64,000 nt of DNA from Hydrogenophaga sp. (lineage in GTDB: Bacteria; Pseudomonadota; Gammaproteobacteria; Burkholderiales; Burkholderiaceae_C), in NCBI RefSeq assembly GCF_030158645.1, contig NZ_JAOASO010000033.1, positions 1 to 64,000 of the forward strand, given 5' to 3'. The notes beneath the pieces were generated by a model. It did not search any database. It was given only the letters and a program-made list of their open reading frames with translations, and was not told the origin of the DNA. Within the stretch, counting starts at the first letter, position 1; every line of letters starts with the position of its first letter. Below are positions 7,291 to 19,293 of the stretch, piece after piece. The position numbers were made by a program, and so were the translations under genes.

Positions 7291-7667
7291 GGGGCTGCAC
7301 TGGTTTCGACGTGGGTTCGGACGCGCAGCAGGGCATGTCGAGGTTCTGTCACCTCGTAAAGCAACAGAAAAAAACCAACTGCAAACGACGAACGTTTCGC
7401 ACTCGCCGCTTAATCAGCGGTGAGCCTTGCAACAGCAGGCCGATGGGCTGGGCAAGGGGGTCGCAAGACCTCCCGGCTGCAAGGATAATTTCATCGGCTG
7501 GCTTTGCGTCGGGCACCTTGACGCAGGGCGAGACTCAAGGATGCTGGCTTCCCGTTTAGCGTGCCACTGCGCGACTCGGGCGGCGAGACTCAAATCAGAC
7601 GGCTACACATGTAGAACTGCTCGAAGAAGGCTTGCGGACGGGGGTTCAAATCCCCCCAGCTCCACCA
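7291..7667 (+). ncRNA. ssrA: Transfer-messenger RNA (tmRNA)
   Basis: This RNA rescues stalled ribosomes by trans-translation. The 5' end GGGGCTGCACTGGTTTCGAC and the 3' end with the T-arm GGGGTTCAAATCCCCC and terminal CCA are diagnostic. The acceptor stem pairs GGGGCUG with CAGCUCC. The tag reading frame at 7381-7413 (GCA AAC GAC ... GCT TAA) encodes ANDERFALAA, a betaproteobacterial tag. The 377-nt length is normal for one-piece tmRNA. It is followed by its own terminator. Confidence 0.98.
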
Positions 7668-7754: not shown

Positions 7755-8183
7755 TCACTTCGCCTGCAGGCGGTTGATGTATTCCAGCAGCCCCAGGATG
7801 CGCGCGCGCACGTGTGCCTCGGCGTTGTAGGGCGCCTCCATGAAGTACTCGGCGTCCTTGATGCGGTAGTCGCGACCCCACACGGGCATGTCGCGTGAAC
7901 CGTGGGACGGCACTTCTGCGCCGTCGATCACGTCATACAGCCGACTCATCGGCAGCACGCCGCCGTTGTTTTTTGCAAGCAGCGTGAGGTCTGGCGGGCT
8001 CTTGGTCAGGAAGGGCACGAGCGCGCCGTTGCCCTTGCCGCCGATGCCGTGGCAACTGGCGCAATTGGCGTCGAACTCCCGTTTGCCGGGGTCGACGGAG
8101 GCCGATCGCGCCTGCGCCAGTGCGTTGCCGGTGAGCGCTGTCAGGCCCAGTGCGAGCCACAGTGCGTGGTGGATGTTTTTCAT
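7755..8183 (-). CDS. Small periplasmic c-type cytochrome
   Basis: The 142-residue protein has a signal peptide of about 22-24 residues (MKNIHHALWLALGLTALTGN, then ALAQ). One covalent heme site, CASCH, lies at residues 41-45, and RDMPVWG later probably supplies the axial methionine. It is a class I monoheme cytochrome, likely a periplasmic electron carrier; the partner oxidase is not in the window. I chose the ATG at 8183 rather than an upstream in-frame ATG because it starts the signal peptide. A dyad TTGAGCAGCCTCAA is centred about 66 bases upstream, suggesting FNR-type control. Confidence 0.9.
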   Translation of the reverse strand: MKNIHHALWLALGLTALTGNALAQARSASVDPGKREFDANCASCHGIGGKGNGALVPFLTKSPPDLTLLAKNNGGVLPMSRLYDVIDGAEVPSHGSRDMPVWGRDYRIKDAEYFMEAPYNAEAHVRARILGLLEYINRLQAK

Positions 8184-8242
8184 GTGGGTCTCCGGTGGTT
8201 GTGGACGGGCGTCCATGTTCTCGTTGCCGCGGGCCTTGCCGA

Positions 8243-8256
8243 TTGAGCAGCCTCAA
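8243..8256. promoter_or_regulatory. Putative CRP/FNR-family operator (site A, cytochrome c gene)
   Basis: TTGAGCAGCCTCAA is a perfect TTGAG-N4-CTCAA inverted repeat. On the minus strand GAACAT at 8220-8215 lies where a -10 would sit if the dyad were centred near -41.5, the class II activator position. Three similar dyads precede other units in this block. Confidence 0.55.
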
Positions 8257-8371
8257 CCGCCCTGCAATTGCGCGTGCGATGCGTCCGGCACATCGGCAGG
8301 ACCGGGGCGCGGCGCTGCTGTGAGGCCAGGCGAGGCCTGGGGCACCGGCAGCTGCCCTGCTTCGGGGTGGG

Positions 8372-8821
8372 TCACCGCGCCGGCCTGTGCAGTTCCCGCA
8401 GGCGGGTTTCGAGGGAGTCGATGTCCAGGCGGGTGTAATCGGCGTCTTGGGTCCATTGCAGACGGGCGGCCACGGCCGGAGTCAGCGTGGCCCTGAGTTC
8501 GCCCAGAAAGGGGCTGGAGGCGGCCACCCACAGGATGTCGTATTCGCCTTGTGTGAGGCCTTGTTCCAGCCGTGCTGCCAGTTCGCGGGCGAACTGGTGC
8601 AGCACCTTTTGCCGCGTGCTGGTGTGCGTCTCGAAGTGTGCGGCGGCGCTGCTGTGGTCGCTGCTCTCGTGCCCTTGCCGGTCGCGTTGGAGATCGCTGT
8701 GCTTGAGCCGACCCTCGGGGAAATCAATGGTCTCCAGCGCCACCAGCGGGTCGCCCACGCCGGTGCGGCTGAAGATGCGGGCGAGAGACCCGTTGGCGAC
8801 CAGAATCCACTGTTGTTTCAT
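8372..8821 (-). CDS. Host attachment protein / baeRF-like protein
   Basis: The 149-residue protein starts MKQQWILVANGSLARIF, the typical opening of the 'protein required for attachment to host cells' family. That family was later linked to bacterial eRF1-like (baeRF) folds, so a ribosome-related stress role is possible. A charged middle follows (LKHSDLQRDRQGHESSD), then a helical domain with QFARELAARLEQGL and a C-terminal VAASSPFLGELRATL. No signal peptide or membrane segment is seen, so it is cytoplasmic despite the family name. The ATG at 8821 was chosen because upstream codons do not match the family. A perfect TTGAGCATGCTCAA dyad lies about 63 bases upstream. Confidence 0.82.
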   Translation of the reverse strand: MKQQWILVANGSLARIFSRTGVGDPLVALETIDFPEGRLKHSDLQRDRQGHESSDHSSAAAHFETHTSTRQKVLHQFARELAARLEQGLTQGEYDILWVAASSPFLGELRATLTPAVAARLQWTQDADYTRLDIDSLETRLRELHRPAR

Positions 8822-8877
8822 GGCGGGTCCTTTGGATGCGAAGGCCACCACTCTGGGGCCAGCGTGAGCGCGCGCCA

Positions 8878-8891
8878 TTGAGCATGCTCAA
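8878..8891. promoter_or_regulatory. Putative CRP/FNR-family operator (site B, host attachment gene)
   Basis: TTGAGCATGCTCAA is a perfect inverted repeat between the CFA synthase stop and the downstream gene start. Its spacing to the start codon nearly equals that of site A, which supports a shared regulator. Confidence 0.55.
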
Positions 8892-8945
8892 GCGTGCCCG
8901 GCAAACCGCATAGTGGGCCGACATCCGGCCCTGAGGTCCAGGCGG

Positions 8946-10235
8946 TCACAGTGGTGCTGGGCACAGTCCTGATCGCACGGCGGTTCGTGCGGGATCGGCG
9001 GCATACATGTGGCGCCGGTTGAACGGGTACACCGATTGCGCGCCGCGCAGCGGGGTATCGCTCAATTGACCGCTGGGCCGCGAGGCGAGCAGCTGGTGGA
9101 TCGAGATCCAGCCTCGCTCGAACGCCACCGCGCAGCCAGCCAGGTACAGCCGGTAGGCGCGGACGGTGGCTTCGCTGGTGAGTTCGCGTGCGCGATCCAG
9201 CTCTTTCTCCAGCGATGCCGACCACGCCCACAGGGTGCGGGCGTAGTGGGGACGCAGGTTCTCCGCGTCCAGCAGTTCCAGCCCGCTGCCGCTCAGGCTG
9301 CGCGCCACGCGGGACACGTGAACCAGTTCACCCCCGGGGAAGATGTGCTTCTCGATGAAATCGCCCAGGCCGGCGCCGAGCTGGTGGTTATCGATCCCGC
9401 CGGCGGTGATGCCGTGGTTGAGCATCAGGCCGCCGGGTTTGAGCAGGCGCTGCAGCTGCTCGAAATAGCCGTCGAGCCGGGCTGCACCCACGTGCTCGAA
9501 CATGCCCACCGACGCAATGCGGTCGAAGCGCGCGGTTTGCGGCAGGTCGCGGTAGTCGAGCAGGCGCATGGTGACCCGATCGCGCAGGCCTTTTTTGTCG
9601 ATCAGGCGGTTCACATGCGCGTGTTGGTGGCGCGAGAGCGTGATGCCCATGGCGTGCACGCCGTGGTGCTCGGCGGCCCACAGCAGCAACCCACCCCAGC
9701 CTGCGCCGATGTCCAGAAACAGTTGACCCGGCTGCAGTTGCAGCTTGCGGCAGATGTGTTCGAGCTTGGCTTCCTGCGCCTGGGCCAGGGTCATGTCGGC
9801 GCGTTCGTAATAGGCGCACGAATACACGCGCAACGGGTCGAGCCAAAGGGCGAAGAAGTCGTCGCTCAGGTCGTAGTGAAAACGCACTTGCTCGGCGTCC
9901 CTCTGCTGGCGATGGAGCCACCGCGAGCGCAGGTGCTGAAGCCACTGGGTGCCCATCCCGGCATGGCCTTGCGCCACCGGGTCGCCCGCGAGTTCGGCGG
10001 CGATCTCCACCACCTCGCGCAGGTCCCCTTCGATGTCCAGGTCGCCGCGGACGTAGGCGTCGGCGAGGGTGCCGATGTGGCCGCTGGCCAGCCACCTGAG
10101 CTGATGGGCATCGGTCACTTTGAGGTGCACCGGGGCGTCTGGCGCGCCAGCGTGGCCACCGGGCCAATGCAGCGCCAGCGGACGCGAGAGTTGCCCGATG
10201 CGCGCCTCGATCAGGGAGGGCAGGGTGAGTTGCAT
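8946..10235 (-). CDS. Cyclopropane-fatty-acyl-phospholipid synthase family protein
   Basis: This SAM-dependent enzyme likely adds a methylene bridge across double bonds of unsaturated membrane phospholipid acyl chains, a stationary-phase and stress modification. The 429-residue protein has an N-terminal region at about 1-125 and a Mycolic_acid_synthase/CFAS domain from about 140. Visible motifs are the SAM loop LFLDIGAGWGGLLLWAAEHH, the CFA signature VRFHYDLSDDFFALWLD, and a late EKHIFPGGELVHVS. I start it at the ATG at 10235; the long upstream extension belongs to the regulator gene in another frame. It lies 13 bases after the CRP/FNR regulator and is probably cotranscribed with it. Confidence 0.9.
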   Translation of the reverse strand: MQLTLPSLIEARIGQLSRPLALHWPGGHAGAPDAPVHLKVTDAHQLRWLASGHIGTLADAYVRGDLDIEGDLREVVEIAAELAGDPVAQGHAGMGTQWLQHLRSRWLHRQQRDAEQVRFHYDLSDDFFALWLDPLRVYSCAYYERADMTLAQAQEAKLEHICRKLQLQPGQLFLDIGAGWGGLLLWAAEHHGVHAMGITLSRHQHAHVNRLIDKKGLRDRVTMRLLDYRDLPQTARFDRIASVGMFEHVGAARLDGYFEQLQRLLKPGGLMLNHGITAGGIDNHQLGAGLGDFIEKHIFPGGELVHVSRVARSLSGSGLELLDAENLRPHYARTLWAWSASLEKELDRARELTSEATVRAYRLYLAGCAVAFERGWISIHQLLASRPSGQLSDTPLRGAQSVYPFNRRHMYAADPARTAVRSGLCPAPL

Positions 10236-10248
10236 GGTGAGGGCCTCT

Positions 10249-11100
10249 TCACGCGGCCAGCTGGTGCAAGCCCGAATGCCTGACCGCGTTGCCATGGCGA
10301 GGCCCCAGGCGGCGCCCCGACGCAGCGCCGATGTCGTCCAGCGAGCGGCGGGTGCTGCGCGAATACGCTTTGAGGCCGTCCATGTCCAGAATCTCCACAT
10401 CGCGGTCGTTGACGTGGATGAGGTGGGCTGCGGCCAGCGCGGTGAAAGACCGGCTCACCGTCTCGTGCGCCACCCCGAGCATGCTGGCGATGTCGCGCCG
10501 GCCCATGCGCAGGTGAAAGCGCCGGGGCGACTGGCCGCTGGCCGCCATGTGTTGGGAGTGCTGCAACAGGAACCGGGCCAAGCGGACCTCCGAGGCCACG
10601 GCTGCCATCACGTCCACCAGGTCCCGGGTGCGTGTGAGCGCCCGGCTGCCGGCGCGCTGCAGTTCGCGTGCGAACGCCGGCACCGCGCGGCTGAAGGCGG
10701 CCAGTTCTGTTTTGTGGATCACATACACGGTGGAGTCCTCCAGCGCACTCGCGGCGGTGGGGTGGTTTTCCATGCAGAGCGCGTCGAAGGCCAGCACCTC
10801 CCGGCGTCCGGCAAAGGCCAGCACCTGTTCGTAACCGTCTTCGTCGGTGCGGAAGATCTTGAACGTGCCGGTGCAGACGAAGTACAGCGCGTCGCTGGGC
10901 GCACCGAGGTGGACCAGCTGGACGCCAGCCGGGACCCGACGCAATCCCACCACCATGCGGCTGGCGGCGTGCTCCGGGTCCGTTGCGCTCAGGTCTTCGC
11001 TGCTCAGCATGCGAAGAAGGTCCGACAGGGTCGCTCGCCCGGCCAGGGGAACGGTGTGGAGCGAGGTGGCGCAGACCGGTGGTGTGATCGGTGTGTTCAA
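10249..11100 (-). CDS. CRP/FNR-family transcriptional regulator without FNR cysteine cluster
   Basis: The 283-residue protein has an N-terminal cyclic-nucleotide-binding-like beta roll (about 35-145), a dimerisation helix, and a C-terminal winged helix. Its recognition helix AHETVSRSFTAL has E213, S216 and R217, the FNR-type pattern that reads TTGAT half-sites. Cysteines occur only at 10, 76 and 109, so the four-cysteine [4Fe-4S] sensor of classical FNR is absent. A heme, redox or protein signal is more likely. I chose the TTG start at 11100, which follows AGGAG by seven bases; an ATG at 11151 is the alternative. A consensus TTGAT-N4-ATCAA site lies upstream. Confidence 0.85.
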   Translation of the reverse strand: MNTPITPPVCATSLHTVPLAGRATLSDLLRMLSSEDLSATDPEHAASRMVVGLRRVPAGVQLVHLGAPSDALYFVCTGTFKIFRTDEDGYEQVLAFAGRREVLAFDALCMENHPTAASALEDSTVYVIHKTELAAFSRAVPAFARELQRAGSRALTRTRDLVDVMAAVASEVRLARFLLQHSQHMAASGQSPRRFHLRMGRRDIASMLGVAHETVSRSFTALAAAHLIHVNDRDVEILDMDGLKAYSRSTRRSLDDIGAASGRRLGPRHGNAVRHSGLHQLAA

Positions 11101-11271
11101 GGGTGGCTCCTCTGGTGGGTGTGAACGGTGGGGTGTTGCTGGTTCAAGCATGCGCCGGCTCCCGGCGGCACACCATCGGAATCCGGCGTGACATGCGCTC
11201 GGACTGGAGCGGCCCGCGACAAGACCGATTCCCACAGACCGTTCGGAGTATTCCTAAGCCGGTGCCGGACC

Positions 11272-11285
11272 TTGATGTGCATCAA
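11272..11285. promoter_or_regulatory. Consensus FNR-type operator between divergent regulator and kinase genes (site C)
   Basis: TTGATGTGCATCAA matches the FNR consensus TTGAT-N4-ATCAA exactly. It lies between the regulator gene (leftward) and the sensor kinase gene (rightward), so it could control either or both. Rightward, TAAGAT at 11329-11334 is a possible -10. Leftward, AATACT at 11252-11247 is a weaker one. Confidence 0.7.
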
Positions 11286-11366
11286 GTCCGGGCGTTGCGC
11301 GGGGCTGGTTGATCGGCCAAAACCTTTCTAAGATGCCCCCACCGGTATCCAAGCGAGCACGTCGTC

Positions 11367-12911
11367 ATGACTTCCAGCGCTTCCCCCTTTGTTCCACCCA
11401 CGGTCGACGTGCTGGCGGAGCAACGGCTGGCGCACGCAGCGCTGGAGGCCGTGATCACGGTGGACCATGAACAGCGCATCGTCATGATCAATCCGGCGGG
11501 ACTGGGCATGTTTGGACTGTCGAGTGAGCAGGCGCTGGGCATGGCGCTGGAGCGGCTCATTCCCGACCGCCTTCGCGCTGCACACGGGCACCATGTCCGC
11601 CAGTTCTGCGACTCTGGCCAGATCGAGCGACCGATGGGCAAGCGCGGCCAGGTGGTGGGACTGCGTTCCAACGGTGAGGAGTTTCCGGTGGAGGCGGCCA
11701 TTTTCAAGAGTGAGGTGGTGCAGCCTTCGGGCACACAGACCTATTACACCGTCTTGTTGCGCGACACCAGTGAGTTGAGCCGCATGAGTGGCGTGATCGA
11801 CCGGCTCAACCAGCGCCTGCGCGCCATGTTCGAGCGCGCGCCGGTGGCGATCTGGATCACCGAGCAGGAGCGGGTGGTGTTCGCGAACCGCGCCTGCGCC
11901 CAGCTGGTGGGGCTGGACCACCCGGAGCAACTGGTGGGGCGGTCGATCTTCGACTTGCTCGCACCGGATGCGCACGACCCGGTGCGCAACCAGCTGCAGG
12001 CGCTCGACCAGGACGAAGGGGTGGCGGTGGTGCAGGGTTCCATCCGGCGCGCCAACGGCAGCTTGCGCGAGGTCGAGCTGGTGGTGGCGACACTGCCCGA
12101 CCACGAACGCTCGTTTGTGCAGATGGTCATCAACGACATCACCCAGCGTGCGCGCGAAAAGAAGGACCTGTTGCGCTCCCGTCGCACGTTGCGCGAACTC
12201 TCGGCCAGCATGGTGGAGGCCCGGGAAGAAGAGCGTCGGCGCATCGCGCGCGAGCTGCACGACGAACTGGGCCAACGCCTCACCGCGTTGAAGCTGGAAA
12301 TGGCGGCCTGCCAGCGCGACCACCCTGACCTGGCGGTGGGGGAGCGCGCGCAGGCCATGCTGGACATGCTGGACGACACCGTGGCATCGGCCCGCCGCAT
12401 CGCCATGGACCTGCGCCCGCTCATGCTGGACGACCTGGGCCTGCCCGAGGCCATCGACTGGCTGGTGAACGAATTCAAACGACGCACCGGGATGGAGGTC
12501 GTCACCAGGCTTGACGACAACCTGTGCGAGCTTTCCCCCCACCTGGCGACCACGCTGTACCGCATCGTGCAGGAAGCCTTGACCAACATCACCCGCCATG
12601 CACGGGCGACGCGGGTCTCGGTGGAGCTGGAGGGCAGCAACCGCGAGCTGACGCTGAGCATCCAGGACAACGGCGTGGGCTTCACCCAGGGCATCCGTTC
12701 GAGCAACCCCGGCTCCTTCGGCCTGCTCGGCATACGGGAGCGGGTGCTGATGCTGGGCGGGCGCCTGACCGTGAGCAATGCGCCGGAGGGCGGAGCCCGG
12801 CTGGTGGTGCACGTGCCCATGGCGCAGCCCGCAGCGCCGGCGCCCGGTGACCACGACCAGGACGCGGTGGAGCCGCTGTTCGACGATTCCATCCACGACA
12901 GTCTTGATTGA
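11367..12911 (+). CDS. PAS-PAS sensor histidine kinase, NarX/DegS type
   Basis: The 514-residue protein lacks membrane segments, so it senses cytoplasmic signals. Two PAS domains lie at about 20-130 and 147-265. The HisKA_3 dimerisation domain has the phospho-acceptor H298 in RRRIARELHDELGQRL, followed by the DLRPLMLDDLGL helix. The HATPase_c domain is intact: N-box IVQEALTNITRHARAT, G1 box IQDNGVGF, and G2 box FGLLGIRERV. A final acidic tail is not part of the domain. It probably signals to the LuxR-type regulator at 14085. It is followed nine bases later by a second, related kinase gene, and its upstream region holds FNR site C. Confidence 0.92.
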   Translation: MTSSASPFVPPTVDVLAEQRLAHAALEAVITVDHEQRIVMINPAGLGMFGLSSEQALGMALERLIPDRLRAAHGHHVRQFCDSGQIERPMGKRGQVVGLRSNGEEFPVEAAIFKSEVVQPSGTQTYYTVLLRDTSELSRMSGVIDRLNQRLRAMFERAPVAIWITEQERVVFANRACAQLVGLDHPEQLVGRSIFDLLAPDAHDPVRNQLQALDQDEGVAVVQGSIRRANGSLREVELVVATLPDHERSFVQMVINDITQRAREKKDLLRSRRTLRELSASMVEAREEERRRIARELHDELGQRLTALKLEMAACQRDHPDLAVGERAQAMLDMLDDTVASARRIAMDLRPLMLDDLGLPEAIDWLVNEFKRRTGMEVVTRLDDNLCELSPHLATTLYRIVQEALTNITRHARATRVSVELEGSNRELTLSIQDNGVGFTQGIRSSNPGSFGLLGIRERVLMLGGRLTVSNAPEGGARLVVHVPMAQPAAPAPGDHDQDAVEPLFDDSIHDSLD

Positions 12912-12920
12912 GGAGAGCCC

Positions 12921-14088
12921 ATGACCGACACACCGATGCCCTCCACCGCCAGCCACGACGCGCTGTCGCATGAGCTGCGCGTTCACCAGGTCGAATTGAA
13001 GCAGCAGAACGAGGAGCTGCAGCGTGCGCAGTTCGATCTGGCGGCGGCCCACGATCGTTACCGCGACCTGTACGACTTTGCGCCGGTGGGCTATTGCACG
13101 CTGGATGCACAGGGATGCATCGTCAAGATCAACCTCACGGGAGCGGGCTTGCTGGGGCAGCCGCGGGCGGCGTTGCAAGGCAAGCCGCTGGCGCGCTTCG
13201 TGAGCCAGAACGACGCCGACCGCTGGCATCTCTACTTGCGTTGGGCGTTGGGGCGTGAAACGCCGCAACGCATCGACCTGACCATGAATTTTGCCGATGG
13301 CACGCTGCAGTGGTTTGCTGCGATCAACAGCGTTCGCGTGCTCGTGGACGAGGTTGTGCCCAACCTGCGTGTGTCGATCACCGATGTGACCGACCGCATG
13401 CGATCGGAGGTGGAGCGCCGCATCGCCGCCATCGATGCGGATGCCCGCGAATCGGAGCGCCGGCGCCTGGCGCTGGAACTGCACGAGGATCTGGGCCAGC
13501 GCCTGAGCGCCATCAAGATGCAGCTGGCCGCGCTGCCCGAGGAGGCCGGGCAGGCGAGTGCCACGCACAAGGCAGCGCTGCAGGTCGAGATCGACCAGGC
13601 GGTGTCGCTGGTGCGGCGCATCACCGCCGATCTGCGGCCGCCGATGCTGGACGACCTGGGGCTCGCTTCGGCGATGGAGTGGCTGGCCAAGGACACGGCC
13701 CGCCGTCTCCATCTGAAGCTCACCCTGAACATGGACAACGACCACCCCCCTGGGCCGCACGCAGTCGCTGGCGCTCTACCGCTTTTTCCAGGAGGCGCTG
13801 TCCTACCTGCTGCACGAGACCAACGCCTCCGACCTCGTGATCGATGTGCGCCGTCCGTTGGGTCAGTTCATCCTGACCATGCGCGCCCGGGGCGGTGAGC
13901 TCAAGGCCCCGTGGCGGCTGGACACCCGCTCCGAACCATCGATGATTCTGGAACACCGGGCCCGCCTGCTCGGTGCTCACCTCAGCTTCGACACCAGCCC
14001 CGACAGCGCCGGGTGGATCGGCCTCAAGCTGACCCAGAACCTGGGCCTGAACGAAACCCCGGCGGATCGCTCGGGCAGACCATCATGA
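12921..14088 (+). pseudogene. Second PAS histidine kinase gene, frameshifted at a C-run, with degenerate ATPase domain
   Basis: The frame from ATG 12921 encodes an N-terminal coiled region, a PAS domain at about 45-160, and HisKA_3 with H188 in RRRLALELHEDLGQRL plus DLRPPMLDDLGL. After NMDND it runs into unrelated sequence. The next frame (+1) continues sensibly (LALYRFFQEALSYLLHE) to a TGA at 14086-14088, which overlaps the response regulator ATG at 14085. Removing one C from the six-C run at 13745-13750 restores a single frame of about 388 codons. The restored C-terminal domain aligns with the first kinase but lacks the N-box asparagine and the DxGxG box, so it is probably not an active ATPase. 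The cause may be a real mutation, slippage, or a sequencing error. Confidence 0.8.
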
Positions 14089-14768
14089 TCTGCGCACAGA
14101 CCGCGCCCCGGCTCAGGCTCCTGCTGGTGGACGACCACACCGTGGTGCGCGAAGGCCTCAAGCGACTGCTGGACCCACAAGGCAACCAATGGGCCATCAC
14201 CGAGGCGGGGACTGGCTTTCAGGCGCTCGAATTCCTGCGTCGTGAACCGTTCGACCTTGTCATCGCCGATCTGTCCCTGCCCGGTATGAGCGGGCTCGAA
14301 CTTGTCCGCCGCATCAAGGACGGGTTCCCCGGCGTGGCCGTGCTGGTGCTGACCATGCACAGCGAGGAGCAGTACGCCATGCGCGCTTTCCAGGCCGGTG
14401 CCAGCGGCTTTGTCACCAAGGACAGCGCCTGCGATGAACTGGTCGCGGCGGTGCGCAAGGTGGCGTCTGGCGGTGTCTTCGTGACCTCGGTGCTGGCCGA
14501 GCGGGTGGTGCAGCAGCTCAACGGCCGCCGCCACGCAAGCGACATCAGCACCTTGTCCAACCGCGAGCTGGACATCCTGCAGCGCATCGTGGCTGGCGAG
14601 CGCCTCGTCGACATTGCCGAGGCCCTGCACCTCTCCATCAAGACGGTGAGCACCCACAAAACCCGCATCCTGGAGAAGCTCCAGCTCGACAGCACGGCCG
14701 CCCTGATCCGGTTTGGACTGGAGCACCAGCTCGACAAGAGCGATCTGGGCGCAACGCCCCACCTCTGA
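14085..14768 (+). CDS. NarL/FixJ-family response regulator
   Basis: The 227-residue regulator has a receiver domain at about 8-125. Its acidic pocket is in LLLVDDHTVVREGL, the phospho-acceptor D62 is in VIADLSLPGMSGLEL, and the late lysine is in GFVTKDSA. A LuxR-type HTH follows at about 158-220 (LSNRELDILQRIVAGERLVD, then LSIKTVSTHKTRILEKL). Its start overlaps the end of the second kinase frame (ATGA), so it is translated with the kinase genes. It is the likely target of the kinase at 11367. Its regulated promoters cannot be read from sequence. Confidence 0.93.
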   Translation: MICAQTAPRLRLLLVDDHTVVREGLKRLLDPQGNQWAITEAGTGFQALEFLRREPFDLVIADLSLPGMSGLELVRRIKDGFPGVAVLVLTMHSEEQYAMRAFQAGASGFVTKDSACDELVAAVRKVASGGVFVTSVLAERVVQQLNGRRHASDISTLSNRELDILQRIVAGERLVDIAEALHLSIKTVSTHKTRILEKLQLDSTAALIRFGLEHQLDKSDLGATPHL

Positions 14769-14821
14769 TCAACGCTCCGGCCTCAGGCCCGGGTGACAAT
14801 ACCGGGCATCGAGGAGTGGAC

Positions 14822-17770
14822 ATGGTCACGAACAATGAGCAAGCATCGCCCGGCGGCAGCGGCGGTGCCCACCGCCAGCTGGCCGCACCGGCCATGGCCT
14901 CGGGCTGTCCGGTGGTGGCGCTGGGCGCATCGGCCGGCGGGCTCGAAGCCTTCGAGCAGTTTCTGCGCGCCATGCCGGTGGACAGCGGCATGGGCTTTGT
15001 GCTGGTGCAGCACCTGGACCCCACCCACCCCAGCATCCTGGCGGAGATCCTGCAGCGCAGCACCACCATGCCGGTGGTGGAAGCCAGGGACGGCATGGTG
15101 GTCGAGCGCAACCGCGTGCATGTGATCCCCCCCAACCGCGACATGGTGATCCTGCGCGGTGTGCTCGGCTTGAGCTTGCCCAGCGAGCCGCGCGGGCGAC
15201 ACCTGCCCATCGACAGCTTTTTTCGCGCCCTGGCGTCCGACCTGGCCGAATCGGCCGTGGGGATCATCCTCTCGGGCACCGGCACCGACGGCACGCTGGG
15301 CATCCGGGCCATCCATGGTGCGGGTGGCCTGGGGCTGGTGCAGGAGCCGTCCACCGCGCGCTTTGACGGCATGCCGGCGAGCGCGCTGAAGTCGGGCTTT
15401 GCCACGCAGGCGCTGGCGGTGGAGGCCATGCCCGCGCTGCTGCTGGCGCATGCCCGGCACCTGGCGTCGCGTCCGGCCGGGGGCGAAGGCGGTGAGGCCT
15501 TGCGAAAGCTCTCGGGTGTGCTCATGCAGCTGCGCCAGGGCACCGGGCACGATTTCTCCCAATACAAGAAAAGCACGCTGGGTCGGCGCATCGAGCGGCG
15601 CATGACACAGCAAGGCATTGACGACATCACCACCTACGAGCGTTTTCTCAAGGAGCATCCGCCCGAGGTGCAGATGCTGTTTCGCGAACTGCTGATCAAT
15701 GTCACCAGTTTCTTTCGCGATCCGACGGTGTTCGACACGCTCAAACGCGACGTGCTGCCCGCGCTGCTGGCGCACCGCCCCGACAACGAGTCCTTGCGCG
15801 TGTGGGTGGCGGGCTGTGCCACCGGTGAAGAGGCCTACACCGTGGCCATGTTGCTGCGCGAACTGGCCGACGAGCAGCGGCGCGACTGGCCTGTGCTGAT
15901 TTACGGCACCGACATCGACGCCGATGCGATCGCCGTGGCCCGCGCCGGCCTGTACCCGCCCAACATCGTGCAGGACGTGACGCCCGAGCGCTTGCGCCGT
16001 TTCTTCGTGAAGGAAGAAGCGGGCTACCGCGTGCGCAAGGAGATCCGCGAGATGGTGGTGTTCGCGGTGCAAAGCGTCATCAAGGACCCGCCCTTCACCC
16101 GGCTCGACCTGCTGACCTGCCGCAACCTGCTGATCTACCTGGAGCCGGAACTGCAGGAGCGGCTGGTGCCCATCTTTCATTACGCATTGCGCCCCGGTGG
16201 TGTGCTGTGCCTGTCGCCCTCCGAGAGCATCGGCAACCACGCCGAGCTGTTCGACACGCTCGACCGGCGCCTCAACATCTACCGCGCGCGACCCACCGTG
16301 GCCTCGCGCCGCGCGGTGATCAGCAGCCGGCTGTCATGGACCACGGACGGGCAGGGCTCAACCGTGCCGGCGGTGGTGGTCAAACCCCGCGAAACCGCCG
16401 CCGCCGACCTCGCCAGGCGCACGCTGCTGCAGGCCTTTGCCCCGGCCTCGGTGCTGACCGACCTGCAGGGCGACATCCTGTTCGTGCACGGCGAAACCGG
16501 CCGCTTTTTGCGCCTGGCGCCGGGCCAGCCCACGCACAACGTGGTGGACATGGCCACCGAAGGCCTGCAGATCGATGTGAGGGACGCCTTGCAGAAAGCG
16601 GCCGCGGGCGGCCTGAGCAGCTTCAGCCGCGACATCGCGCTCAAGGTCGACGGCGACATCTGCACGGTGACGCTGAGTGTGCGCCCGCTCGCTGGCCCCG
16701 AGCCCAGCCGCAATCTGCTGTTGTTCAGCTTTCAGGAGCTCGACCCCCGGACGCGCAGCCCGGCCCGCCGGCGCAAGGCCGGCACCAACACCGAGGCCCA
16801 GCGCGTGCAGGCGTTGGAGCACGAACTCATGCTGAGCAAGCAGACGCTGGGAGCGATGGTCGAGGAACAGCAGATCTCCAATGAAGAACTGCAGTCGACC
16901 AACGAGGAACTGCAGTCAACCAACGAGGAGCTGCAGTCGACCAACGAAGAGCTGGAAACCTCCAAGGAAGAACTGCAGTCGGTGAACGAAGAGTTGGTCA
17001 CGGTCAACTCGGAGTTGCAGACCAAGGTGGAGCAACTCACCGGCATGCAGGACGACATGAAGAACCTGCTGGACAACATCAGCGTCGGTTCGATTTTTCT
17101 GGACCGACGGCTGCTGATCCGACGCTTCACCCGCGAAGCCGCAGCGGTGTACCGGCTGGTGCCTTCGGACATGGGCCGTCCGCTGGCCGACATCCGTTGC
17201 GAGTTGCTGGACGTGGACCTGTTGACCGACGCGCAGGCCGTGCTCGACACGCTCACACCGGTGGAGCGTGAGGTGCGCACCGCGGGCGGCACTTGGTACC
17301 TGACGCGCATCAAGCCTTACCGCACGCTGGACAACGTGATCGACGGCGTGGTGCTGACTTTCAACGACGTGACCGACCGGGTGCATGCGCTGGCGATGCG
17401 CCAGGCACGCGATCTGGCCGAAGCGGTGGTGGACACCGCCTACGAGCCGCTCGTGGTGCTCGACGAACAAGGGCGCGTGCTCACCGCGAACCGGGCCTTT
17501 CTGGCGCTCTTCGGTGGTCGGGCCGACGACACGCTGGGCCGGGGTATCTACGAAATCGCCAACGGCCAATGGGACTTTGCCGCGATGCGCGAGCTGCTCG
17601 ACAGCGAGGCGCCCGTCCAGGTCCCGGGTGAGGACCGATTGATCAGCCATGCGTTCAGCGGCATTGGTCTGCAGCACCTGCGGGTGCGCACCCGCCGGGT
17701 CGCCGGCAAGAGCGGCATCACCGGTCTGGTGCTGGTGAGCTTCGCGCCGGAGCCGGGACCCGCGTCCTAG
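14822..17770 (+). CDS. CheB-CheR fusion with C-terminal PAS domains
   Basis: This 982-residue protein joins a CheB methylesterase domain (about 25-215; catalytic S37 in LGASAGGLEA, plus VQHLDPTHPS and GTGTDG) to a CheR methyltransferase domain (about 230-490). The CheR part includes LINVTSFFRDP, the SAM loop VWVAGCATGEEAYT, GTDIDADAIAVARAGLYP and CRNLLIYLEP. A long coiled coil (about 660-740) with NEELQST heptads follows, then two PAS domains. There is no kinase domain and no chemoreceptor nearby, so it is not a classical chemotaxis adaptor. I chose ATG 14822, five bases after GAGGAG, over the GTG at 14816. It follows the response regulator by 53 bases. Confidence 0.9.
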   Translation: MVTNNEQASPGGSGGAHRQLAAPAMASGCPVVALGASAGGLEAFEQFLRAMPVDSGMGFVLVQHLDPTHPSILAEILQRSTTMPVVEARDGMVVERNRVHVIPPNRDMVILRGVLGLSLPSEPRGRHLPIDSFFRALASDLAESAVGIILSGTGTDGTLGIRAIHGAGGLGLVQEPSTARFDGMPASALKSGFATQALAVEAMPALLLAHARHLASRPAGGEGGEALRKLSGVLMQLRQGTGHDFSQYKKSTLGRRIERRMTQQGIDDITTYERFLKEHPPEVQMLFRELLINVTSFFRDPTVFDTLKRDVLPALLAHRPDNESLRVWVAGCATGEEAYTVAMLLRELADEQRRDWPVLIYGTDIDADAIAVARAGLYPPNIVQDVTPERLRRFFVKEEAGYRVRKEIREMVVFAVQSVIKDPPFTRLDLLTCRNLLIYLEPELQERLVPIFHYALRPGGVLCLSPSESIGNHAELFDTLDRRLNIYRARPTVASRRAVISSRLSWTTDGQGSTVPAVVVKPRETAAADLARRTLLQAFAPASVLTDLQGDILFVHGETGRFLRLAPGQPTHNVVDMATEGLQIDVRDALQKAAAGGLSSFSRDIALKVDGDICTVTLSVRPLAGPEPSRNLLLFSFQELDPRTRSPARRRKAGTNTEAQRVQALEHELMLSKQTLGAMVEEQQISNEELQSTNEELQSTNEELQSTNEELETSKEELQSVNEELVTVNSELQTKVEQLTGMQDDMKNLLDNISVGSIFLDRRLLIRRFTREAAAVYRLVPSDMGRPLADIRCELLDVDLLTDAQAVLDTLTPVEREVRTAGGTWYLTRIKPYRTLDNVIDGVVLTFNDVTDRVHALAMRQARDLAEAVVDTAYEPLVVLDEQGRVLTANRAFLALFGGRADDTLGRGIYEIANGQWDFAAMRELLDSEAPVQVPGEDRLISHAFSGIGLQHLRVRTRRVAGKSGITGLVLVSFAPEPGPAS
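16880..17005 (+). repeat. In-frame 21-base tandem repeat encoding NEELQST heptads
   Basis: Six consecutive 21-base units (starts 16880, 16901, 16922, 16943, 16964, 16985) encode NEELQST, NEELQST, NEELQST, NEELETS, KEELQSV and NEELVTV. They form a two-heptad-register coiled coil between CheR and PAS. The first three copies differ only at synonymous positions. Confidence 0.85.
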
Positions 17771-18510
17771 CGCGGCCGGCCAGCGTCGGCCGCCTGCAGC
17801 GCCGCGCACACCTCGTCGTCGCCGAGCTGGTGAAAGTCGAGGTAGTGCAGGCCAATGGCGCGAAACGGTCGCGGCTCCTGCAGGCAGACCACCTCATCGA
17901 CCGCTTCACCCAGTGCCACCACGCTCTGGTGTGGTGCCACCGGCACTGCGACGATCAGCCGCGCCGGTTGACGCCGACGCAGCGCCAGCAGCGCAGCACG
18001 CATGGTGGTGCCCGTGGCAATGCCGTCGTCCACCACGATCACGGTGGCACCCTGCACCCGCTGCGGCGTCCGGCCCCGCAGGTAGAGGCGCCGGCGGCGT
18101 GCGATTTCCTGCAGCGCGGCCGGCAGGGCGGCCTGGATGTAGGCGTCGTCCACGCCATCCCGATCGGAGGCCTCCCCGGTCATCACCACGTCGGGCGGTG
18201 TGCCTTCCACCACCGCCGCCACCGCCAGCTCGGGCTGGAAGGGCGCGCCGATCTTGCGCACCAGCAGCAGGTCCAGTGGTGCGCCCAGCGCGCGGGCAAT
18301 TTCCGCTGCCACCGGCACGCCTCCGCGTGGCAAGGCCAGCACCACCAGCGGCGGTTTGAGGTGCATGCCGAGCAAGGCATCGGCGAGCGCCCGCCCCGCC
18401 TGGGTGCGGTTGGCGAAGGGTTTGCACGTCAGCGCCATGCCGTGCATCAGCGCCATGCTGTCCTGGAAAACGCTCGGGTGGCCGAATCCCGCTTCGTCAA
18501 ATCGAGTCAT
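17767..18510 (-). CDS. Phosphoribosyltransferase-family protein
   Basis: The 247-residue protein has a type I PRTase fold. The PRPP-binding motif is VIVVDDGIATGTTMRAALLA, and VLALPRGGVPVAAEIARAL is the N-terminal core. The substrate base is not evident; this family is often adjacent or fused to an alpha/beta hydrolase, as here. I chose ATG 18510, which has GGGAGG five bases upstream, rather than the GTG at 18516. It begins two bases after the hydrolase stop, so the two are one operon. Its end overlaps the end of the convergent CheB-CheR gene by four bases. Confidence 0.85.
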   Translation of the reverse strand: MTRFDEAGFGHPSVFQDSMALMHGMALTCKPFANRTQAGRALADALLGMHLKPPLVVLALPRGGVPVAAEIARALGAPLDLLLVRKIGAPFQPELAVAAVVEGTPPDVVMTGEASDRDGVDDAYIQAALPAALQEIARRRRLYLRGRTPQRVQGATVIVVDDGIATGTTMRAALLALRRRQPARLIVAVPVAPHQSVVALGEAVDEVVCLQEPRPFRAIGLHYLDFHQLGDDEVCAALQAADAGRPR

Positions 18511-18512
18511 CC

Positions 18513-19160
18513 TCACCTCCCGTTGCCCAGGTGTTCCCGGAACCAGCCGCAGGCAAAGGCCGCCACGCTGCGCAGCGCACCCGGCTCCTGAAACAGGTGA
18601 CCGGCGCCCGGCACCACCTCCAGCCGTTTGGGTGATGGCAGCTGGCGCAGGGCAAGGCGGTTGAGTTTGAGCACGTCGGTGTCCAACCCGCCCACGATCA
18701 GCAAGGTGGCCGCCTGCACCCGCGGCAGGCTCGCCTGGGCGAGATCGGGGCGCCCGCCGCCACAGACCAGGGCGCCCACGCGGTCGGGCCGGGCCGCGGC
18801 CGCCACCAGCGCCGCGGCCGCACCCGTGCTTGTCCCGAACAGCCCCAGTCTCAGATGGGCCAGTTCCGGGTGGTGCTCCGTCCAGTGGATGGCCTCAAGC
18901 ACGCGCTGCGCCAGCAGGTCCACGTCGACAGCCCGATGGCGGTCGCAGGCCTCCTCGTCGGTGAGCAAGTCGAACAGCAGGGTGGCCATGCGCGTGCGCT
19001 GCACGGCCCGGGCCACCCATTGGTTGCGCGTGCTCAGGCGGTCACGGCTGCAGCCTTGAGCCAACACGACCAAGCCCAGCGCCGGGACGGGCACGACCAG
19101 ATCGCCCGGCAATGCCAGCGAGCCGAGGTGTACCGGCTCCGCGGTGAGCACAGTCGACAT
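18513..19160 (-). CDS. Alpha/beta hydrolase, dienelactone-hydrolase type
   Basis: The 215-residue cytoplasmic protein has the nucleophile elbow LGLFGTSTGAAAAL, a later acid in IVGGLDTDV, and the catalytic histidine in VPGAGHLF. The fold matches the dienelactone hydrolase group but the substrate is unknown. It leads an operon with the phosphoribosyltransferase gene. A near-perfect FNR-like dyad is centred about 126 bases upstream, with a good -10 (AACAAT) in the expected place, suggesting induction by the local CRP/FNR regulator. Confidence 0.82.
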   Translation of the reverse strand: MSTVLTAEPVHLGSLALPGDLVVPVPALGLVVLAQGCSRDRLSTRNQWVARAVQRTRMATLLFDLLTDEEACDRHRAVDVDLLAQRVLEAIHWTEHHPELAHLRLGLFGTSTGAAAALVAAAARPDRVGALVCGGGRPDLAQASLPRVQAATLLIVGGLDTDVLKLNRLALRQLPSPKRLEVVPGAGHLFQEPGALRSVAAFACGWFREHLGNGR

Positions 19161-19279
19161 GGGTTGCCTTGCCCCGGACCTGTCCGGGAATGCGGTGTGG
19201 GAACAACTCTGCGCCCCGCCCGGTGTTGCAAGCCATCAGCACAGGGCACCCATTGTTCGGAGACCGGTTCATTCCCGCA

Positions 19280-19293
19280 TTGAGCATGCGCAA
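19280..19293. promoter_or_regulatory. Putative CRP/FNR-family operator (site D, hydrolase-PRTase operon)
   Basis: TTGAGCATGCGCAA has one mismatch from a TTGAG-N4-CTCAA dyad. On the minus strand AACAAT at 19257-19252 lies at the spacing expected for a -10 when the dyad is centred near -41.5. Confidence 0.5.

Follow-up and report, generated by a model that had tools for sequence, protein, structure and literature searches.

A CRP/FNR-family activator without Fe-S cysteines, recurring dyad boxes around its gene and a possible FixLJ-FixK-like relay in Hydrogenophaga sp.

The window analysed here, a stretch of 64,000 nucleotides of Hydrogenophaga sp. (contig C33 of a draft genome of 3.7 Mb in 169 contigs), contains a gene cluster arranged around a regulator which we name FNRl. 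Genes for a cytochrome c, a host-attachment protein (Host_attach/baeRF12), a cyclopropane-fatty-acid synthase-like protein (cfa), and the CRP/FNR protein FNRl follow each other on the minus strand; next to them, the plus strand encodes two kinases (HK1 and HK2), a response regulator (RR), and a CheB-CheR-PAS fusion protein (CheBR), and a phosphoribosyltransferase (PRTase) and a hydrolase gene lie again on the minus strand. A sequence-only reading of this DNA had proposed that four FNR-like dyads, named here by their first positions (8243, 8878, 11272 and 19280), mark a self-contained stress regulon of the local CRP/FNR protein. All four were found at these coordinates by a sequence check (Table 1). 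In the following we show that boxes of this kind recur around FNRl genes of other genomes, and we describe a second dyad, absent from that reading, which may place FNRl under the control of a FixLJ-FixK-like relay.

Table 1. Dyads, promoter elements and genes of the cluster (positions in the window)
Feature	Position	Strand	Remark
Small c-type cytochrome, signal-peptide-like start	7755..8183	-	Pfam Cytochrome_CBB3/Cytochrom_C; start ATG 8183 by inspection
Dyad TTGAGGCTGCTCAA, upstream of cytochrome	8243..8256	-	GAACAT (3/6) at 8215-8220
Host_attach / baeRF family 12 protein	8372..8821	-	Pfam 1e-32 and 3e-25
14-base palindrome TTGAGCATGCTCAA	8878..8891	-	56 nt upstream of Host_attach
Cyclopropane-fatty-acid synthase-like protein (cfa)	8946..10238	-	CMAS 1e-98; directly downstream of FNRl, same strand
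FNRl, CRP/FNR-type activator with helix AHETVSR, lacking the Fe-S cysteine cluster	10249..11100	-	TTG start (probable)
Second dyad TAGGAATACTCCGA, putative operator for RR upstream of FNRl	11243..11256	-	loose form TNGGA-N4-TCCNA
Canonical FNR-type dyad TTGATGTGCATCAA	11272..11285		no strand; divergent FNRl/kinase intergenic region
TAAGAT (4/6), candidate -10 of kinase operon	11329..11334	+	43 nt from 11272 dyad, class I distance, counted on sequence
HK1, PAS-PAS-HisKA_3-HATPase kinase	11367..12911	+	PAS1 DosP/FixL haem-PAS-like; His73 candidate haem ligand
HK2, PAS-HisKA_3 kinase, open frame ending without HATPase domain	12921..13898	+	Pfam; apparent frameshift
NarL/FixJ-class response regulator (REC-GerE)	14085..14768	+	start ATG 14085 by inspection; co-occurs with FNRl
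CheB-CheR-PAS fusion protein	14816..17770	+	Pfam
Phosphoribosyltransferase-family protein	17767..18516	-	Pfam; overlaps hydrolase end
Dienelactone-hydrolase-like alpha/beta hydrolase	18513..19160	-	Pfam DLH 24.8 bits, cut-off 21
AACAAT, -10-like hexamer	19252..19257	-	22 nt from 19280 dyad
Asymmetric dyad TTGCGCATGCTCAA, upstream of hydrolase-PRTase	19280..19293	-	dyads recur upstream of hydrolase orthologues

FNRl matches PF00027 (cNMP-binding) and PF13545 (Crp HTH) above cut-off, which assigns it to the CRP/FNR superfamily, and its matches among PDB sequences include FNR-type and FixK2 chains. A search of 250 genomes of the same family gave 22 places, in 20 genomes, with a score of at least 156 bits. 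The group that follows, at 119 bits or less, is FNR-like, and those of its open reading frames (ORFs) that were read contain the FNR cysteine cluster. For comparison, a set of 91 loci was compiled from these places and the best 80 of 129 named relatives, with duplicates removed (1.49 Mb, window included). None of the 91 FNRl ORFs has the Fe-S cysteine cluster, which is present in all 21 FNR ORFs read (22 FNR loci were tried; L063 gave no ORF under the filter). FNRl is not an Fe-S FNR. The recognition helix, previously called FNR-type, does keep the E..SR signature (E213 in 89 of the 91 sequences, S216 and R217 in all of them); H212, conserved in 90/91, is replaced in the FNRs by leucine (20/21) or proline (1/21). 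An order-wide search of 300 genomes, which included genomes from this family, found eight members with at least 292 bits, five of these outside the family; among the matches listed, all non-members scored 210 bits or less, so that FNRl forms a separate score group. With the NCBIfam FixK equivalog, FNRl reached 64.5 bits and not the cut-off of 300. The genome under study has 21 HTH_Crp_2 matches, and a motif filter retained two FNR-type helices, that of FNRl and that of an FNR-like frame (LETVSR) cut by a contig end.

When all 1024 dyads of 5-mers with a spacing of 4 were ranked in the 91 loci, TTGAG-N4-CTCAA came first: it occurs 46 times in 27 loci, compared with 0.82 expected copies. The mixed dyads TTGAG/TTGCG (67 vs 3.18) and TTGAT/TTGCG (41 vs 3.25) are enriched as well, and TTGAG-N4-CTCAA leads again for spacings 0 to 12 if the runs of N heading the lists are set aside. 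Three other enriched repeats, ATGCC-N1-GGCAT, TCGAG-N3-CTCGA and GCCTT-N1-AAGGC, were dropped, as they lie inside called genes in 39/49, 49/51 and 23/28 cases. In 21 of the 22 loci of the first set (20 fetched places and the window; the place in G173 was left out), 14 copies of TTGAG-N4-CTCAA were counted, present in 10 loci, where 0.35 were expected from counts in the respective genomes; the p-value of this test has to be read loosely, because related loci were treated as independent. Six box classes add up to 202 sites in FNRl loci. The reversed controls gave two sites each for two of the classes, and two further controls gave none. The dyads recur in different gene orders and genera. A genome scan and a conservation test had been suggested together with the dyads; both were run, and what was borne out is the recurrence upstream of orthologous genes, with TTGAG/TTGCG rather than TTGAT as the dominant box: only seven of the 202 sites are of the form TTGAT-N4-ATCAA.

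In order to assign sites to genes, ten dyad patterns were searched within 330 nt upstream of matched gene starts, excluding homologues below 60 bits or without 330 nt of upstream DNA. In the 91 loci, a dyad precedes 10/10 host-attachment, 20/31 hydrolase, 10/63 HK1 and 1/16 CheBR genes, and the ten reversed patterns gave 0 throughout; these counts are not independent, because several loci are close relatives. The hydrolase site is often asymmetric; in 10 of these 20 cases it reads TTGCG-N4-CTCAA in the direction of the gene. At the place of the 11272 dyad, an alignment of eight loci shows an exact TTGA-N6-TCAA in five and one mismatch in two. For the 8243 dyad only two cytochrome homologues have enough upstream DNA, and the one with a dyad is the window itself. 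The four dyads are unequal: 8878 and 19280 are best supported and 11272 moderately. The description of three of them as perfect inverted repeats is correct for the 5-base arms; over all 14 bases, 8878 alone is palindromic.

In the window, TTGA-N6-TCAA occurs three times (shuffled sequences: mean 0.41, 2/100 reach 3) and TTGAG-N4-CKCAA gives five strand-matches at three sites (mean 0.23, 0/100 reach 5). The whole draft genome contains 61 copies of TTGA-N6-TCAA vs 21 of the reversed pattern, an excess of about threefold, nine copies of TTGAG-N4-CTCAA vs one of the control, two of the nine within this cluster, and 21 forward and 14 reverse matches to TTGAG-N4-CKCAA vs 9 and 4. One possible extra target was noticed at C85:36621 (L225), where TTGAGCCAGCGCAA lies upstream of a gene which by eye resembles one for a universal stress protein (USP).

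The distance between dyads and putative promoters was analysed in 177 segments leading from a dyad to the downstream gene, some of which originate from one dyad read both ways. Hexamers with at least four of six matches to TATAAT lie 21-22 nt after the dyad in 39 cases, vs 55 cases over 50 other offsets (8-59 nt); 13 of these 55 constitute a minor peak at 41-43 nt. A spacing of 21-22 nt is typical of FNR/CRP activators of class II, and one of 41-43 nt of those of class I. An activator-type promoter spacing is thus kept downstream of the dyads. In the window itself, -10-like boxes had been said to lie at the expected spacing for three of the dyads. Hexamers occur at 22 nt from 8243 (GAACAT, 3/6), 8878 (CAGAGT, 3/6) and 19280 (AACAAT, 4/6), but the matches are weak. 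From the 11272 dyad, GTTGAT (3/6) was found toward the kinase and a best match of 2/6 at 20-24 nt toward FNRl.

A Pfam scan was performed for 124 of the 141 dyad-downstream genes, excluding 16 module kinases, regulators and FNRl genes as well as L081:13830-14318. Raw counts, given for the first 25 of 104 families and without a control gene set, were HSP20 8, Host_attach 6, DUF2934 6, USP 5, CBS 5, DUF883_C 5, Cpn60 3, E1_dh 3, BON 3, and Lon_C 2.

The second dyad lies upstream of FNRl at 11243-11256. Its loose form, TNGGA-N4-TCCNA, occurs 59 times in the 91 loci, and 55 of these copies, from 53 loci, are found no more than 800 bp upstream of FNRl; three controls of the same shape gave 0, 1 and 3 copies there. 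An alignment of 49 promoters shows a further G, G and A, 22 bp downstream of the first GGA, at frequencies of 76, 65 and 61%. The order-wide search provided five FNRl places outside the family, two of which were already in the set; among the three new loci (L207, L208 and L211), the second dyad lies upstream of FNRl in L207, with two loose copies elsewhere, and in L208. The dyad is not enriched genome-wide (three copies vs two of the control in the genome under study, and controls often higher over the 250 genomes) and is therefore read as a near-single-site operator. A single copy within the window is not unusual either (11/100 shuffles), and the case for this dyad rests on its position. The half-site, here ATTCC[GT]A, resembles the right half of the RcsAB box, a site of RcsB type, and perhaps also BvgA heptads.

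A candidate for the protein bound there is the response regulator. It belongs to the NarL/FixJ class according to PF00072 and PF00196, both above cut-off, and the aligned phospho-accepting aspartate is kept in 72/72 sequences. With 92.7 bits it did not reach the cut-off (255) of the FixJ equivalog, and it scored higher with the models of UvrY (158 bits) and MctR (150 bits) than with that of FixJ (93 bits), all below their cut-offs. Matches to the regulator with at least 56% identity were obtained in 16/18 FNRl-bearing genomes and in 0/18 genomes lacking FNRl; of the latter, two gave weaker matches (42 and 44%) and the other 16 gave no match that passed the threshold. This comparison covered all of the 20 FNRl-bearing genomes except G161 and G102; the two genomes without the regulator are G118, with a short contig, and G173, whose FNRl match contains three stops. 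Its distance to FNRl is about 6 kb or less in 15 of the 16 genomes and about 16 kb in G193. By tblastn it was detected in 51/59 loci with enough flank, and in 59/72 loci it lies upstream of FNRl on the other strand.

The first PAS domain of HK1 (PAS1) gave 14 PDB matches at E <= 0.001, and 12 of them bear the name of DosP, FixL or a haem-PAS sensor. The other two are a multi-sensor kinase and "hypothetical protein yddU", which we take to be DosP. His73, kept in 42/47 sequences, aligns with a histidine of DosP and FixL that presumably is their haem ligand. HK1 contains HisKA_3 and is not of the HisKA type; it scored 35.9 bits with the FixL equivalog and did not reach the cut-off of 850.

Because of the second dyad, the co-occurring response regulator and the haem-PAS-like kinase, we propose a cascade above FNRl which resembles FixLJ-FixK: a low-oxygen cascade that is made of other kinase and regulator classes and drives a stress regulon. 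Judged from sequence comparison, the case for it is evenly poised. HK1 would sense oxygen via its DosP/FixL-like haem-PAS domain; that it senses a gas through haem is likely. The kinase would then phosphorylate the NarL-class response regulator, as their linkage suggests, and this regulator would bind the TMGGAATATTCCKA-type dyad and switch on the FNRl-cfa unit. In favour of this step are the near-exclusive position of the dyad, the half-site, which is like that of RcsB, and the fact that regulator and FNRl occur together in genomes, and we regard the binding of the second dyad by the regulator as fairly likely. FNRl, in turn, very probably binds TTGAG boxes; it would occupy TTG[AC]G-N4-C[TG]CAA as a class II, sometimes a class I, activator, a role in agreement with the observed spacing. 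In this cascade, the GGAATATTCC-type dyad would be the input and the TTGAG/TTGCG boxes the output. The predicted targets in the window are the host-attachment/baeRF gene, the hydrolase-PRTase unit and possibly the cytochrome gene, with feedback on the divergent FNRl/HK1 promoters via the 11272 dyad; in relatives, USP, Hsp20, chaperonin, CBS, BON, and DUF883 genes may be added. The notion of a regulon, as formulated in the sequence-only reading, agrees with the recurring dyads upstream of orthologues, with their clustering at FNRl and with the activator spacing. That the regulon is self-contained, however, is doubtful, because FNRl is probably not the sole driver of the circuit and may itself be under the control of the cascade.

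Several observations weigh against the proposed cascade. The protein-DNA pairings and the oxygen response are inferred. Of the 23 sites outside the cluster in the genome under study, 15 were read; 12 of these lie inside called genes, two upstream of a gene and one in neither position; as the gene caller is crude, such counts are approximate. Own dyads are rare upstream of cfa (3/21), PRTase (2/25) and RR (3/72) genes. In the new loci, the ten dyad classes gave one site in L207 (166 nt before cfa), three in L211 (one of them 128 nt before the PRTase gene) and none within 20 kb in L208, and no dyad precedes the host-attachment genes of L207 and L208, which are 37-39% identical. All three loci nevertheless keep the response regulator near FNRl, with 58-62% identity; the relay is thus kept together with FNRl over a wider range than the individual target sites are. 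L211 has no second dyad before its FNRl gene, and 38 of the 91 loci lack its loose form at this place, a few of them (e.g. L080) having short upstream DNA. Moreover, dyad and regulator are only weakly associated within loci: according to tblastn, the second dyad is present in 34/51 loci with the regulator vs 2/8 without it (p = 0.047). An earlier test had given 24/41 vs 14/22 (p = 0.79); it was superseded because the crude gene caller had missed regulator genes.

This weak association is one of the points for a different assignment, in which FNRl does control a regulon but another factor occupies the second dyad, and HK1 and the response regulator control different genes; the 88 first-look candidates of this regulator class in the genome could include such a factor. 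The co-occurrence of regulator and FNRl in genomes, the mostly divergent arrangement of their genes and the RcsB-like half-site, however, speak against it, and we consider it somewhat unlikely. A similar question arises for the TTGAG boxes, since some of the sites could be bound by the global FNR, whose helix is similar. If the dyads were sites of the global Fe-S FNR, FNRl would be incidental or at most modulating. The genome does encode an FNR-like LETVSR protein (the cysteine region of its cut frame is beyond view), and the global FNR may act at the 11272 dyad, which has the canonical FNR form. In addition, TTGAG-N4-CTCAA is not confined to genomes with FNRl. It is frequent in three FNRl-less genomes of genus g53 (G052 14, G168 11 and G246 7, vs 1, 0 and 0 control matches) and in G214 (11 vs 2) and G221 (11 vs 1), and some FNRl-bearing genomes show no genome-wide excess, namely G208, from the same genus as the window (3 vs 3), and G094 (1 vs 2). 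On the other hand, TTGAG/TTGCG and not TTGAT boxes dominate the FNRl loci, and the sites concentrate near FNRl genes. Furthermore, the sites read in G052 (8 of 14) and G168 (8 of 11) front genes of other kinds in nine cases, with four sites inside genes, one both and two neither (gene kinds were assigned by eye). By eye, these genes (L227-L242) resemble atpI, accB and others, which suggests that another regulator with the same palindrome acts in these FNRl-less genomes. A global FNR as the regulator of the dyads is therefore unlikely. That the four dyads are a product of chance or of gene order is very improbable and already largely refuted: the signal in the window alone is modest, with 2/100 shuffles reaching three sites, and the -10 matches are weak, but the reversed controls are near zero, the promoter spacing is conserved, and the dyads recur across gene orders and genera.

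The cascade proposed here, with the response regulator acting on FNRl and FNRl on the TTGAG/TTGCG boxes, can be compared with known systems. In the FixLJ-FixK systems of Alphaproteobacteria (Caulobacterales, Rhizobiales), fixK is a conserved target of FixJ, FixK lacks an Fe-S cluster, the operator is palindromic, and autoregulation and feedback occur in some species (PMC4999443). The proposed logic is alike, in that an oxygen-sensing PAS kinase and a FixJ-class regulator would act on the gene of an FNR-like activator without Fe-S cluster. Here, in contrast, the kinase contains HisKA_3, the regulator scores better with the models of UvrY and MctR than with that of FixJ, the candidate operator is TMGGAATATTCCKA-like, and the predicted targets are stress genes instead of those of respiration and nitrogen fixation. 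In Burkholderia, FixLJ induces fixK at low oxygen (PMC5234846), and in B. cenocepacia six USPs, among other proteins, are encoded in the lxa locus (PMC6127331). These systems (BCAM0049/anr2 and lxa) share with ours the bacterial order and, as far as our predictions hold, a fixK-type low-oxygen response and USPs (PMC5234846, PMC6127331, PMC9104464), the lxa locus being compared by gene type only; they differ in that FNRl forms a score group of its own. Fnr1 and Fnr3 of Herbaspirillum seropedicae are betaproteobacterial FNR paralogues with differing motifs (PMC5934665), whereas FNRl has no Fe-S cysteine cluster. For the RcsAB box, with the consensus TaAGaatatTCcta, the right half was reported as the RcsB site (PMC4325325), and RcsB is a FixJ/NarL-family regulator (PMC5829831); it is nevertheless another regulator, and in our case a candidate near-single operator lies upstream of an activator gene. 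No account of this Comamonadaceae system was found among the PMC matches listed, which leave out most subscription journals, so that this absence is not a proof.

That a cascade of FixLJ-FixK type was assembled independently in Burkholderiales, with the cysteine-cluster-free FNRl and a survival regulon in place of respiration, is a view we hold with half confidence. If true, the FixLJ-FixK logic of a gas-sensing kinase, a regulator with one main target and an Fe-S-free activator was reached with other protein classes, and baeRF/host-attachment, orphan PRTase-hydrolase, USP, BON, and DUF883 genes would be united as one testable survival regulon. The system also offers a matched comparison of the FNR-like helices LETVSR and HETVSR, which go along with different half-sites.

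Some gene models of the cluster require comment. FNRl probably starts at TTG 11100, because no start codon precedes this TTG in the frame of the closest relative and the GAGGAG/TTG context is kept. The host-attachment gene probably starts at ATG 8821, and the 8878 dyad therefore lies upstream of it. The cfa product scored 429 bits with the CfaB model, below the curated cut-off of 650. Kinase-like sequence of HK2 seems, by eye, to be continued in another frame, which points to a frameshift or an assembly error. A homologue of the CheB-CheR-PAS fusion protein was detected by tblastn in 16/91 FNRl loci. Two metagenome-assembled genomes labelled Bordetella parapertussis (L122, L132) have FNRl loci like those of other Burkholderiales assemblies of this type, and their labels look doubtful. 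Finally, a tmRNA gene with the tag ANDERFALAA, located at 7291-7667, adjoins the cytochrome gene.

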